The notes under the pieces were generated by a model, which did not search any database, was not told the origin of the DNA, and saw only the letters and a list, made by a program, of their open reading frames with translations. The position numbers and the translations under genes are program-made. 64,000 bases of DNA, from contig JAUIIX010000001.1 of assembly GCA_030431515.1 (NCBI GenBank), positions 1 through 64,000 on the forward strand. Reading direction: 5' to 3'. Positions 16,217 through 33,079 of this stretch are shown here, in pieces; position 1 is the first letter of the stretch; every line of letters starts with the position of its first letter. Source of the stretch: a bacterium. GTDB taxonomy: Bacteria > Bacteroidota > Ignavibacteria > Kapaibacteriales > UBA2268.

Positions 16217-17233
16217 ATGTTGAAAATATCAACTATATTCAAAAACAAAACGCTTTTCATAATTGCTATATTTATGGCATTAAGTTCAAGCAAAATGTAT
16301 GCAGATACTCCTTCTGCTCCGATTTGGCTCAATTACACAGGTGTTACACATGACACAACTAAAAATGTTTTCTCCGTTGATTTAGAATGGAGGCATGGTG
16401 AAGTAACAAACGAAAACCCACTCCCAGACTCGTATAATATATATAGAGTACTATTCGGACATAGCGAGGACAAATTTAAACTTGTTGGTACACTTACACA
16501 TAATGCTAATGAGCTAATGCAATTACATACTGACGAAAATATTACAGACGGAGCTATTTATTTATATTATGTAACTGCTGTAAAAGATGGAAAAGAAAGT
16601 GATGAATCTAAAAGAATGACTGCTTTAGTTCCTGGCTCATACTGTGTAAATACAAATGCAGAAATTATTGACTTCAAATCTAACCCTTCGACCATAGGTG
16701 TACCAGGAGAATCTTATGAATATAATGCATTTGCTAAACATAGAAGTTTACGAGTTCAAGGTTTAGTTCGTTATGCATTGGAAGAAGGTCCTGAAGGTAT
16801 GAAAATGGACAACGAAACTGGATTATTAACTTGGGATATTCCTGTAAATTCTGAGAATGAATATTATGTTAAAATTAAAGCCACATCTGAAGATGATAAA
16901 AACGCACTTTCTGAACAAGAATGGTATATCAGAATTGCCTCACAAACTGAAATTATGATTATGTCTTCTGTAGAAAATGCAGTTAAAGATTTGTCAATAT
17001 ATCCAATTCCAGCTCAGTCTAATATAAAAGTTGAGTTTGATTCAGATTTTTATTCTAATAATATTGAGATATTTGATAATTTAGGAAACGTAGTTTATTC
17101 TACTAATTTGAAAAGTAATTTAGGATTTAATACTTATGACCTAAATATTAGTAATTTTGCAAATGGTCTATATACTTTAAGAATTAGTAATGTATATGGA
17201 GTTTCAACTAAGAAATTAATTATCAACAAGTAA
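16217..17233 (+). CDS. Secreted FnIII/Ig-like protein with T9SS C-terminal sorting domain
   Basis: Signal peptide; FnIII-like APIWLNYTGV...YNIYRVLFG...YLYYVTAVKDG; tail LSIYPIPAQSNIKVEFDSDFYSNNIEIFDNLGNVVYSTNLK...FANGLYTLRISNVYGVSTKKLIINK. Confidence 0.8.
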   Translation: MLKISTIFKNKTLFIIAIFMALSSSKMYADTPSAPIWLNYTGVTHDTTKNVFSVDLEWRHGEVTNENPLPDSYNIYRVLFGHSEDKFKLVGTLTHNANELMQLHTDENITDGAIYLYYVTAVKDGKESDESKRMTALVPGSYCVNTNAEIIDFKSNPSTIGVPGESYEYNAFAKHRSLRVQGLVRYALEEGPEGMKMDNETGLLTWDIPVNSENEYYVKIKATSEDDKNALSEQEWYIRIASQTEIMIMSSVENAVKDLSIYPIPAQSNIKVEFDSDFYSNNIEIFDNLGNVVYSTNLKSNLGFNTYDLNISNFANGLYTLRISNVYGVSTKKLIINK

Positions 17234-17243
17234 GATACAAAAA

Positions 17244-17280
17244 TAGGTAAGGCAAGTTGACCTTGCTTTACCTACTTTTT
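17244..17280 (+). terminator. Strong intrinsic terminator immediately preceding the ECF sigma gene
   Basis: taggtaaggcaag-ttgac-cttgctttaccta (13-bp stem with one G.T pair), then cttttt. Confidence 0.85.
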
Positions 17281-17287
17281 AGATTAT

Positions 17288-17869
17288 ATGAACAAAGATT
17301 TTACAAAATTTTCAAATAATGAATTATTAAAATTTATCATAAAAAAGGATAAAAGGGCGAATCTTGCTTTTTCTGAATTTTATGATAGACATCAAAAAGA
17401 TGTAAGGACTTATTGTAAATACTTATTAGAATCTAACTCTTTTCTTGAAGATATTTTCCAAGAAACTTTTTTTGATTTTTATAAAAATATTGTAAATAAT
17501 AATGAAGTTCCAGAAAATGCTGTTGGATATTTACTAAGAATCGCCAGATATAAATGCTTAAAGTATAATAGAGATAAAAAAGTTAATGTGTCTTTTGATG
17601 ACATTAGTTTTGATAAAGAATCTAATGATGGTTTAAAATACGAAGATGAAGAATTATTAGAATTAATTAAAAAATCTTTAGTGCTGATAGACGAACAATA
17701 TAGAGAAGTTTTTATTTTAAAAGAGTTTAATGGTTATACTCACGAAAAAATAGCCGAAATAATTGGAATAACAGTGGCTAATTCAAAAATTAGATTATTT
17801 CGAGCAAATAAAGAATTAAATAAAATTCTTGAACCTTATATAAAAGATATAAAGAAAAATTATGAGTAA
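17288..17869 (+). CDS. ECF-type sigma-70 family RNA polymerase sigma factor
   Basis: Region 2 ANLAFSEFYDRHQKDVRTYCKYLLES..FLEDIFQETFFDFYKNI; region 4 LIDEQYREVFILKEFNGYTHEKIAEIIGITVANSKIRLFRANKEL. Confidence 0.9.
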   Translation: MNKDFTKFSNNELLKFIIKKDKRANLAFSEFYDRHQKDVRTYCKYLLESNSFLEDIFQETFFDFYKNIVNNNEVPENAVGYLLRIARYKCLKYNRDKKVNVSFDDISFDKESNDGLKYEDEELLELIKKSLVLIDEQYREVFILKEFNGYTHEKIAEIIGITVANSKIRLFRANKELNKILEPYIKDIKKNYE

Positions 17870-19079
17870 GTTTGAAAAAATATATGATTTCTTTTCAGGT
17901 GAAATGTCAGAGATTGAAGAAAAGATTTTATTTGAAGAATTGAGTAAAAATGATGAATTAAGAACAGAATTTAATAATCATAAGAAAATTAATGATGTAA
18001 TAAGAAGAAATAATACTCTGGAGTCTGCTCCAAATTCTTCAAAGGAAAAATTATTTGCTAATCTCGGAATAGATTTACCTCATTCAAGTACTTCAATAAG
18101 TACAATGACAAAAGGCAATAATAAGTTGCTAAGTGGGATTTCTTACTTTTCCGTAGCTATTATAAGTGCAGTAATTGTTTATTTTTTAATAAATAAAGGG
18201 TATGAAGAAAATTATTTTACATTGAACAATAAAATACAGAATTTAAATACAGAATATAAAAATTCAAATGAGAAATTAAATAAATTAATTGCTGAAAAAG
18301 ATCATTTAATCAGTGAATTAAAACAAAGTAATAATGATTTTGAAAACAAATTAAATGAAGGTCAAGAAAATATTAAATACATTGAAAAAATAGTTTATAT
18401 AGAAAAAGCAAATAGTAATAATGATTTAATAACTGAATTTAATAAAGCCCAAGAAGACCCTAATTTTAATAATCTAAAAACATTAGATTATTCAAAAAAT
18501 AATAACAAATATTATTTCAAGTTAAACAATAGAAATAATCTTTCTAATAAATATGATTTAGAAAAAATTAAATTTGAAGAAATTGAAGCAAAATCTAAGC
18601 TATATAATTTTACTATTGAATTTTCAAATAACTTTGATTTTTTCAATATTGCACCAAGAACATCACCGGACAATTTTAATTCATTTAATAATAATTCCAT
18701 TTCTTTTTTATATAATATTAAAAATAATTTTGATATAGGAATAAATGTAATTGGAGAAAATTATTCTTTGAAGTATATTAATACAGAAGAAGATGGGGAA
18801 TATTGGTATTATCAAACCCCTAATTTTTTAACAACATCATTAGTTGGAAAATACAGATACGAACTTACAGATAAATTCAAACTATCTCCATTTATAAGTG
18901 CTGGTTTTAATCAAACTGGTGGAGTAATCAGAGGTGGGATTGGATTACAATATATGATTTCTGATATTGTAGGAATTTTATTAAATTCGCAATATTCTAA
19001 TATGGTTTTTCAAAATAGTAATACAGTTTATAACTCTGGAAAAACAAGTATTCAAATAGGTTTAATATGGAAAAATTAA
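17862..19079 (+). CDS. Anti-sigma-factor-like protein: cytoplasmic N-domain, single TM, coiled coil, C-terminal beta-barrel-like domain
   Basis: 8-bp overlap with the sigma gene; MSKFEKIYDFFSGEMSEIEEKILFEELSKNDELRTEFNNHKKIND; TM SYFSVAIISAVIVYFLI; coiled coil; amphipathic beta-strand-rich C-terminus (GGVIRGGIGLQYMI...TSIQIGLIWKN). Confidence 0.7.
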   Translation: MSKFEKIYDFFSGEMSEIEEKILFEELSKNDELRTEFNNHKKINDVIRRNNTLESAPNSSKEKLFANLGIDLPHSSTSISTMTKGNNKLLSGISYFSVAIISAVIVYFLINKGYEENYFTLNNKIQNLNTEYKNSNEKLNKLIAEKDHLISELKQSNNDFENKLNEGQENIKYIEKIVYIEKANSNNDLITEFNKAQEDPNFNNLKTLDYSKNNNKYYFKLNNRNNLSNKYDLEKIKFEEIEAKSKLYNFTIEFSNNFDFFNIAPRTSPDNFNSFNNNSISFLYNIKNNFDIGINVIGENYSLKYINTEEDGEYWYYQTPNFLTTSLVGKYRYELTDKFKLSPFISAGFNQTGGVIRGGIGLQYMISDIVGILLNSQYSNMVFQNSNTVYNSGKTSIQIGLIWKN

Positions 19080-19714
19080 TATATGTATTAGTTTTATTTT
19101 ATTTAATTTCTTGCGGTAATCCTGTAGATTCCGACAAGAATATAGTAAAAGATAAAATTAAAAGTAAAGATGTATTTGCTCGTCCAACTGCTATAAATTC
19201 CTTATGGACATATAGAATTGATGCCGTATATACTGAAAACGGATTAAACAAATTACCAGTTAATTACCCCGTCAATATTCAAGAAAATGTTTTATCAAAG
19301 AATGATGTTAAGGGAGAAAATTGGTTCATTTCAACGATAAACGGAAATGATGTGAATGTTCAGGTTGGAGAAGATTTTATATATTACGAAGTAGATGAAT
19401 TTGAAAAATTAATATTACCAATAAGTACATATACAGATTTATATATTAAAGTTAATTCTGAAGAAGACTGGACATATAATGGGATAGATTACACTTATTT
19501 AGGAAATAGTAACATAGATATAAACGGTACAATTTATAATGTGAAAAGTGTAAAATTTGAGAACAAAGCAGTAAATCAAACAGGTGCGACATATACCAAA
19601 ACAGTTTATTATAATTCAGACTTAGGTATAGTAAAAATTGAATATTTATATAACTTTACAACTCGACTTACAATATTTAATTTAAAATTAGATTTACTTT
19701 CATTTAAGCAATAA
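19067..19714 (+). CDS. Putative lipoprotein, third gene of the sigma operon
   Basis: Lipobox-like MEKLIYVLVLFYLISCGNPVD; 13-bp overlap with the preceding gene. Confidence 0.65.
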   Translation: MEKLIYVLVLFYLISCGNPVDSDKNIVKDKIKSKDVFARPTAINSLWTYRIDAVYTENGLNKLPVNYPVNIQENVLSKNDVKGENWFISTINGNDVNVQVGEDFIYYEVDEFEKLILPISTYTDLYIKVNSEEDWTYNGIDYTYLGNSNIDINGTIYNVKSVKFENKAVNQTGATYTKTVYYNSDLGIVKIEYLYNFTTRLTIFNLKLDLLSFKQ

Positions 19715-32395: not shown

Positions 32396-33079
32396 TTATT
32401 TCCTTTTGTATTCTATTAATTTTACTTGAGCTTTATAGTCATTAAAATCATAAATAAAGTTAGTGAAACCCATATATTCAGAGAAATGGTATGTCGCTTT
32501 AAGTTCGCCAAATTCATCAGATTTTGAACTTGACTCAAGCACCCAGACACTATCAGCATGATATTCGTCAAAGATTTTGTCAACTACCTTTATGTAACCC
32601 GTAAATTCTAATTCTGGTAAATCTGAATAAGTTGATAAAACTCCTTTCCTATCATCAGTTATATTAGAATCTGGGTGAAAATAATATGATTCGTATCTAT
32701 AAGTTTTTATTTTTGTAAATGGTCCATTATTCTTATCTCCAATATTTATTGGAAATCTTACTTGAGGGTAAGGCATTACAACAGTTCTTGCTAATAAATC
32801 TAAAGACAGAGGGCGAATTAAAACAATATTAGCAAATTCGTCGAAGTCGGCAGTTGCTTTAAATTCTTTCTTTAACTGACCGAGACTATCTAATGACTTT
32901 AGCTCCCAGTTCATTTTATTGTTAAGCCAGCCAGTTTTTACATTCATTACGATAGTATCAGCATCACTATTCAATGTTGAAGTAATGACATAAGTCCACT
33001 GCCTATTATTATCATAGATAGTGTTTTCTTTACAAGATATTATAAAGAATAGTAGAAATAAATATATTAAAATTTTCAT
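32396..33079 (-). CDS. Putative lipoprotein
   Basis: MKILIYLFLLFFIISCKENT lipobox. Confidence 0.65.
   Translation of the reverse strand: MKILIYLFLLFFIISCKENTIYDNNRQWTYVITSTLNSDADTIVMNVKTGWLNNKMNWELKSLDSLGQLKKEFKATADFDEFANIVLIRPLSLDLLARTVVMPYPQVRFPINIGDKNNGPFTKIKTYRYESYYFHPDSNITDDRKGVLSTYSDLPELEFTGYIKVVDKIFDEYHADSVWVLESSSKSDEFGELKATYHFSEYMGFTNFIYDFNDYKAQVKLIEYKRK

Follow-up and report, generated by a model that had tools for sequence, protein, structure and literature searches.

A conserved three-gene cassette of Kapaibacterium-type Bacteroidota encodes an ECF sigma factor, a predicted barrel-ended anti-sigma protein and a lipoprotein with a barrel-following tail

We identified a three-gene cassette that probably encodes a transenvelope sigma/anti-sigma switch with a lipoprotein as its dedicated partner. 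The cassette lies in a 64,000-nucleotide stretch of bacterial DNA (hereafter, the window), and its assignment draws on computed gene order, predicted architecture, conservation among relatives, and two separate covariations: that of the N-terminal domain (N-domain) of the anti-sigma protein with the sigma factor, and that of its C-terminal barrel with the lipoprotein tail. The usual view of Gram-negative cells is that a series of several proteins is required to pass the state of the outer membrane to cytoplasmic transcription. The Dma and Reo anti-sigma factors of gut Bacteroides showed that one chain suffices (PMC13088901, PMC9308784, PMC13114119). The cassette suggests that the same one-chain solution exists in a deep, largely uncultured and little-studied lineage, on a different sigma background and in many copies per genome.

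The three genes overlap head to tail, by 8 bp between the sigma gene and the gene for the 405-aa protein and by 13 bp between the latter and the lipoprotein gene; coordinates, frames and overlaps are as the first-pass annotation of this DNA had described them. The features of the cassette and of the region directly upstream are:

16217–17233, + strand: upstream secreted protein with an Ig-like region and a T9SS C-terminal signal (Por_Secre_tail, E 2e-12)
17244–17274, + strand: intrinsic terminator separating the upstream gene from the sigma gene (13-bp stem and T run)
17288–17869, + strand: ECF sigma factor, 193 aa, first cassette gene (Pfam Sigma70_r2, E 4e-10, and Sigma70_r4_2, E 7e-12; TIGR02937 above its cut-off)
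17862–19079, + strand: putative Dma-like, dual membrane-spanning anti-sigma protein, 405 aa, second gene (ORF, family, AF2 model)
17862–18077, + strand: predicted N-terminal cytoplasmic domain, residues 1–72, with helices 5–12, 17–29, 31–52 and 58–67; proposed to bind sigma (AF2, covariation, weak family matches)
18135–18191, + strand: single TM helix, residues 92–110 (KD19 2.25)
18207–18602, + strand: predicted periplasmic tether, residues 116–247, coiled coil to about residue 164 and then disordered (AF2)
18603–19076, + strand: predicted C-terminal 8-strand outer-membrane beta-barrel, residues 248–405 (AF2, Foldseek)
19067–19714, + strand: lipoprotein, 215 aa, third gene (ORF with a lipobox ending ...YLISC16)
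19112–19147, + strand: conserved tail that follows the lipidated cysteine, C16-GNPVDSDKNIV, and is proposed to bind the barrel (tail profile; covariation with the barrel)

Sequence searches place the 405-aa protein in a large family in Kapaibacterium-type Bacteroidota, the phylum to which NCBI assigns Kapaibacterium. The genome of the window contains six full-length members, five of which (including the one in the window) were found by a single-protein search and the sixth by a profile. Matches occur in 79 of 100 related genomes, with a maximum of 15 in one genome. In a sample drawn from the whole phylum, full-length members occur across the entire order. Beyond it, most matches fall on the N-domain of anti-sigma-like proteins that are short (about 160 aa), and two other families contain a few long forms. 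An ECF sigma gene is located directly upstream of 111 of the 112 non-redundant full-length members, at a median gap of about 14 nt, so that the gene pair suspected from the window is kept nearly throughout the family; the sole exception lies near the start of its contig. A lipoprotein gene follows directly downstream in 95 of the 112 (93 recognised by rule and 2 more by eye); in about 17 members none was recognised. A TM helix of this kind occurs in 105 members, the tether has a median length of 131 residues, and 99 of the 112 end in F, L or Y, unlike the protein in the window, which ends in N. The cassette is in all likelihood real, conserved and functional. Chance overlap of open reading frames was considered and rejected, given the paralogues in the same genome and the relatives in other genomes, nearly all behind an ECF sigma gene.

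Two records of the family are irregular. In genome G035 (L034:1486–2635), two ORFs take the place of the anti-sigma gene, one of 204 aa for the N-terminal part and one of 172 aa for the barrel, which may reflect a true split, a frameshift or an assembly error. The cassette of L044, a record titled Desulfobulbaceae bacterium, looks identical to that of L006 (G046, from the family of the window), and the record is probably a misnamed bin. No natural sigma/anti-sigma fusion was found among the long open frames inspected.

The product of the first gene contains regions 2 and 4 only, as in ECF sigma factors. For the 405-aa protein, neither Pfam nor NCBIfam yielded a family above cut-off. Its AF2 model, built with 30 aligned sequences, comprises a helical N-domain (residues 5–67; pLDDT 85–94 over residues 1–40), a helix spanning residues 91–164, a tether with pLDDT below 50 from residue ~164 to about 247, and eight antiparallel strands between residues 250 and 404 with pLDDT mostly >90. 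The first-pass annotation had read one TM helix, a following coiled coil and a possible C-terminal barrel from the sequence, and the prediction agrees on all three: a single strong TM helix runs on, within helix 91–164, into a coiled coil, and the C-terminal strands form a closed 8-strand barrel. Consistent with this, all 50 matches listed in a Foldseek search of the PDB are outer-membrane beta-barrels, the best of which include the 8-strand NspA (E 1.2e-5), OmpA and Ail, and also a designed TMB; PF13505 is matched by 3 of 30 members of the family. A soluble periplasmic C-terminal domain was rejected on the basis of the model and the fold matches. The N-domain gave no above-threshold match to an anti-sigma family, and a few family members give weak zf-HC2 or RseA_N matches at this position. 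As modelled, the 405-aa protein appears to run as a single chain from the cell interior to the outer membrane. The central idea of the earlier annotation, an ECF sigma factor paired with an anti-sigma-like protein that reaches in one chain from the cytoplasm to the outer membrane, is thus supported by the predicted barrel and the conserved gene pair.

The third gene product carries a signal peptide with a lipobox cysteine, a trait it shares with the family. No Pfam match was found for the lipoprotein in the window, and its AF2 model (mean pLDDT 52) is beta-rich and not interpretable. The cassette lipoproteins have in common an 11-residue tail of roughly the form C-x-[DSE]-[PSI]-[LVIT]-[GD]-[IVLTS]-[DE]-x-[NP]-[VRI]. 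On a profile of this tail, the 81 distinct cassette tails, scored leave-one-out, reach a median of +9.0, compared with −8.9 for 37 other lipoproteins from three genomes of the group, scored with the profile built from all tails (p 1e-16). In contrast to the tails, the bodies of 85 lipoproteins fall into 23 clusters without detectable homology, and where any domain is known the domains differ (PrcB_C and META, DUF4397, DUF3108-like). Since the tail is shared across unrelated bodies, we regard it as the constant element of the lipoprotein and the body as the variable one. Behind one cassette (L094:7292–9104), two consecutive lipoprotein genes are found, both with the conserved tail (CEDIVNSEKNI and CDDIVNSDSNI), and L086 likewise has two lipoprotein genes.

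Covariation among the parts of the cassette was assessed as the correlation of pairwise distances over 86 cassettes. The sigma factor covaries with the N-domain (r 0.634; 0.614 given the barrel, p 5e-4), while its correlation with the barrel is −0.03 when the N-domain is held. The tail covaries with the barrel (r 0.386; 0.377 given sigma, p 5e-4), and its correlation with sigma is 0.014 when the barrel is held. Within the 405-aa protein, it is the N-domain that follows sigma and most of the barrel strands that follow the tail, with the TM helix and tether following neither partner well; along the lipoprotein, strong tracking of the barrel is restricted to residues +1 to +11 after the cysteine. 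The tail–barrel correlation is 0.441 when a single family is considered, lies above the null from within-genome permutation (mean 0.228, p 5e-4) and is stable after thinning to <35% identity. At the level of single residues, tail–barrel coupling (MI with APC) gave no convincing contact pattern. As N-domain and sigma on the one hand, and tail and barrel on the other, covary separately, we propose a chain that leads from the lipoprotein tail through barrel, tether and N-domain to sigma. The lipoprotein probably pairs with the barrel of the anti-sigma protein, and its suggested role as a co-sensor gains support from the tail–barrel covariation.

The two covariations could also arise from linkage, if sigma were inherited or recombined as a block with the 5′ half of the anti-sigma gene, and the lipoprotein with its 3′ half. 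The covarying parts are adjacent on the DNA, adjacent genes can share a history, and the difference between sigma and barrel distances would fit recombination in the tether. Two results make linkage an improbable cause. The signal peptide, whose coding sequence separates those of barrel and tail, and residues +12 to +22, just after the tail, follow the barrel far less than the tail does (0.15 and 0.10, respectively), a weakness that may be partly saturation in these fast-evolving flanking segments. Moreover, pairs of lipoproteins whose bodies are unrelated still show the effect (0.31, p 0.001).

In surface lipoproteins of Bacteroidota, the cysteine is followed by an acidic export signal. The tail might likewise be a mere sorting or surface-export signal, the lipoprotein then being an ordinary regulon product, like NigD in Bacteroides, with no barrel partner and no sensory role. 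NigD tails are indeed of the acidic type (e.g. CLGDDDN, CSDDDDE) next to the Bacteroidia pairs that we used for comparison, seven proteins of the Dma/Reo type beside NigD and ECF genes, and NigD genes belong to the EcfO regulon (PMC13114119). We nevertheless consider a pure sorting signal unlikely: only 1 of the 37 control lipoproteins from the three sampled genomes has a tail-profile score clearly above zero, and a signal read by common machinery should not vary with the barrel among the paralogous cassettes of one genome, yet the tail does. The one control above zero (CKENTIYDNNR) is encoded elsewhere in the window, at 32396–33079 on the minus strand. Membership of the cassette lipoprotein in NigD was rejected, as it has no match to NigD_N (PF12667); this domain was likewise not found in the genome of the window or in the 19 family and order relatives listed.

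The earlier annotation had hinted at related porin-family proteins of Bacteroidetes, and at the level of architecture this was right, the counterparts being the Dma/Reo anti-sigma factors of Bacteroides (PMC13088901, PMC9308784, PMC13114119). In Bacteroidia, a Dma/Reo-type protein inhibits its sigma factor, and the pair responds to envelope damage (same sources). Loss of Dma2 in B. thetaiotaomicron leads to sigma-dependent hypervesiculation (PMC13088901), and the EcfO regulon is switched on when Reo, known from P. vulgatus and B. fragilis, is lost (PMC9308784, PMC13114119). The predicted cassette protein resembles Dma1/Dma2, which act with Das1/Das2 in Bacteroides thetaiotaomicron (PMC13088901, citing Pardue 2024 PNAS), in having a single TM helix, a long tether, a C-terminal barrel and an adjoining ECF sigma gene, along with a proposed anti-sigma domain at the N-terminus, and Dma2 is also encoded in a three-gene operon (PMC13088901). 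It differs from Dma/Das in that its sigma factor falls outside the das/ECF21 clade, its N-domain has no detectable similarity, its third gene encodes a lipoprotein with a conserved tail, and many cassettes occur per genome. The EcfO/Reo pair of Phocaeicola vulgatus and B. fragilis (PMC9308784, PMC13114119) is alike in that the anti-sigma factor reaches from the cytoplasm to the surface and that a nigD surface-lipoprotein gene (M0N98_03762) is numbered next to the pair. However, the tail of NigD is acidic and NigD forms a Pfam family of its own, whereas in the cassette lipoproteins the bodies are unrelated and the tail is of another kind.

In a quick tree, from which three very long rows were left out, the sigma factor in the window falls in a well-supported clade with other cassette sigmas, and the cassette sigmas group with those of two neighbouring families. 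A single clade uniting them with eight Bacteroidia sigmas (seven das and one from a sigma–barrel fusion) was rejected (p-AU 3e-8), and other Bacteroidia ECFs match the window sigma better than most das sigmas do. One Bacteroidia genome (G380, L205) encodes a 550-aa sigma–TM–barrel fusion like the described Dma3. In hhalign comparisons of cassette and Bacteroidia profiles, the barrels align over their whole length at 73–75% probability, which could be generic barrel likeness, and the N-domains at 0.05%. When five cassette-bearing genomes were searched with the Bacteroidia profile, no cassette was recovered.

Given the mismatches in sigma and N-domain, the cassette would work like a Dma system while standing apart from it in two tests of descent. 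An origin independent of Dma is plausible from these comparisons, and no firmer than that, because a replacement of sigma and N-domain is conceivable and 8-strand barrels are similar to one another. Our tentative reading, in which our confidence stops a little short of even, is that Kapaibacterium-type Bacteroidota evolved a cytoplasm-to-outer-membrane anti-sigma protein independently, through the fusion of an ordinary anti-sigma domain with an 8-strand barrel, and that the barrel serves as receptor for the matched lipoprotein tail. The cassette could instead be a true Dma by descent, from one ancestral Dma in Bacteroidota whose sigma and N-domain were later replaced or diverged beyond recognition; the shared architecture and gene order and the full-length alignment of the barrels speak for this. 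We rate it as somewhat doubtful in view of the rejected sigma clade, the N-domain probability and the failure of the Bacteroidia profile to find the cassettes, and 8-strand barrels of any origin look alike. If independent origin and the receptor role hold, each genome would have several insulated channels, each with its own tail–barrel and N-domain–sigma pairing and an exchangeable sensor body. Systems of this kind have been known since the work on Dma and Reo; new against the papers searched are the sigma lineage, the multi-copy expansion and the proposed tail–barrel partnership.

In the switch that we infer, from binding and topology to stimulus and release, the helical N-domain would hold sigma at the inner face of the cytoplasmic membrane. 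The anti-sigma protein would cross the inner membrane once and then the periplasm via its coiled-coil and disordered tether, and its own 8-strand barrel would anchor it in the outer membrane. The 11-residue tail of the lipoprotein would dock on or in this barrel, leaving the variable body to sense or recognise cargo. Sigma would then be released, through proteolysis or through tension on the tether, when something changes at the outer membrane: the barrel or the lipoprotein is lost, or a ligand sits on the lipoprotein body. FecA/FecR/FecI-type and other TonB-linked ECF systems also place an outer-membrane barrel, an anti-sigma factor and an ECF sigma factor in one pathway, as three separate proteins. 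In the cassette, by contrast, barrel and anti-sigma domain would form one chain, and the barrel has 8 predicted strands, compared with 22 in a TonB-dependent receptor. By arithmetic, 11 residues in extended form reach about 37 Å, long enough to traverse an outer-membrane barrel; an RcsF-like threading of the tail through the barrel is therefore possible, as a matter of speculation. The cassette is similar to RcsF/OmpA (PMC4942254, PMC7553776) in the proposed use of a barrel-held lipoprotein to carry an outer-membrane signal inward, whereas Rcs is a phosphorelay of separate proteins and the cassette barrel is joined to the proposed anti-sigma domain. The barrel-following tail may represent a missing outer-membrane end of the chain, a prediction that is also relevant to Bacteroides.

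The assembly state of the outer membrane may be the stimulus, as the first-pass annotation had suggested. DegS/RseA provides a known logic for the release of envelope stress sigma factors, and by the same logic the barrel might be sensed in assembly only: an unassembled C-terminus would be degraded and sigma set free, with no standing bridge and no role for the lipoprotein. EcfO-Reo does respond to outer-membrane-damaging agents, including Bd-A, a bacteroidetocin that inhibits BamA (PMC9308784, PMC13114119), which fits such a probe. We regard this reading as quite unlikely, as a mere assembly probe gives no reason for the tail to follow the barrel sequence.

The region upstream of the cassette contains a strong terminator (17244–17274) whose end lies just 13 nt ahead of the start codon of sigma. 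A promoter-like pattern, TGT(AAC/TCC/..)-N14-17-TGTNA, which was picked after enriched hexamers had been seen in the same sequences, occurs upstream of 17 of 108 cassette sigma genes (1 antisense) and of 3 of 519 control genes. Autoregulation of the cassette is only suggested by these counts, because the pattern is absent at the cassette in the window. The T9SS-type protein encoded at 16217–17233 is a possible candidate member of the regulon, since its homologues adjoin 24 of the 112 cassettes, either divergent from sigma or downstream of the lipoprotein, compared with one weak match outside the window in 744 kb of control DNA.
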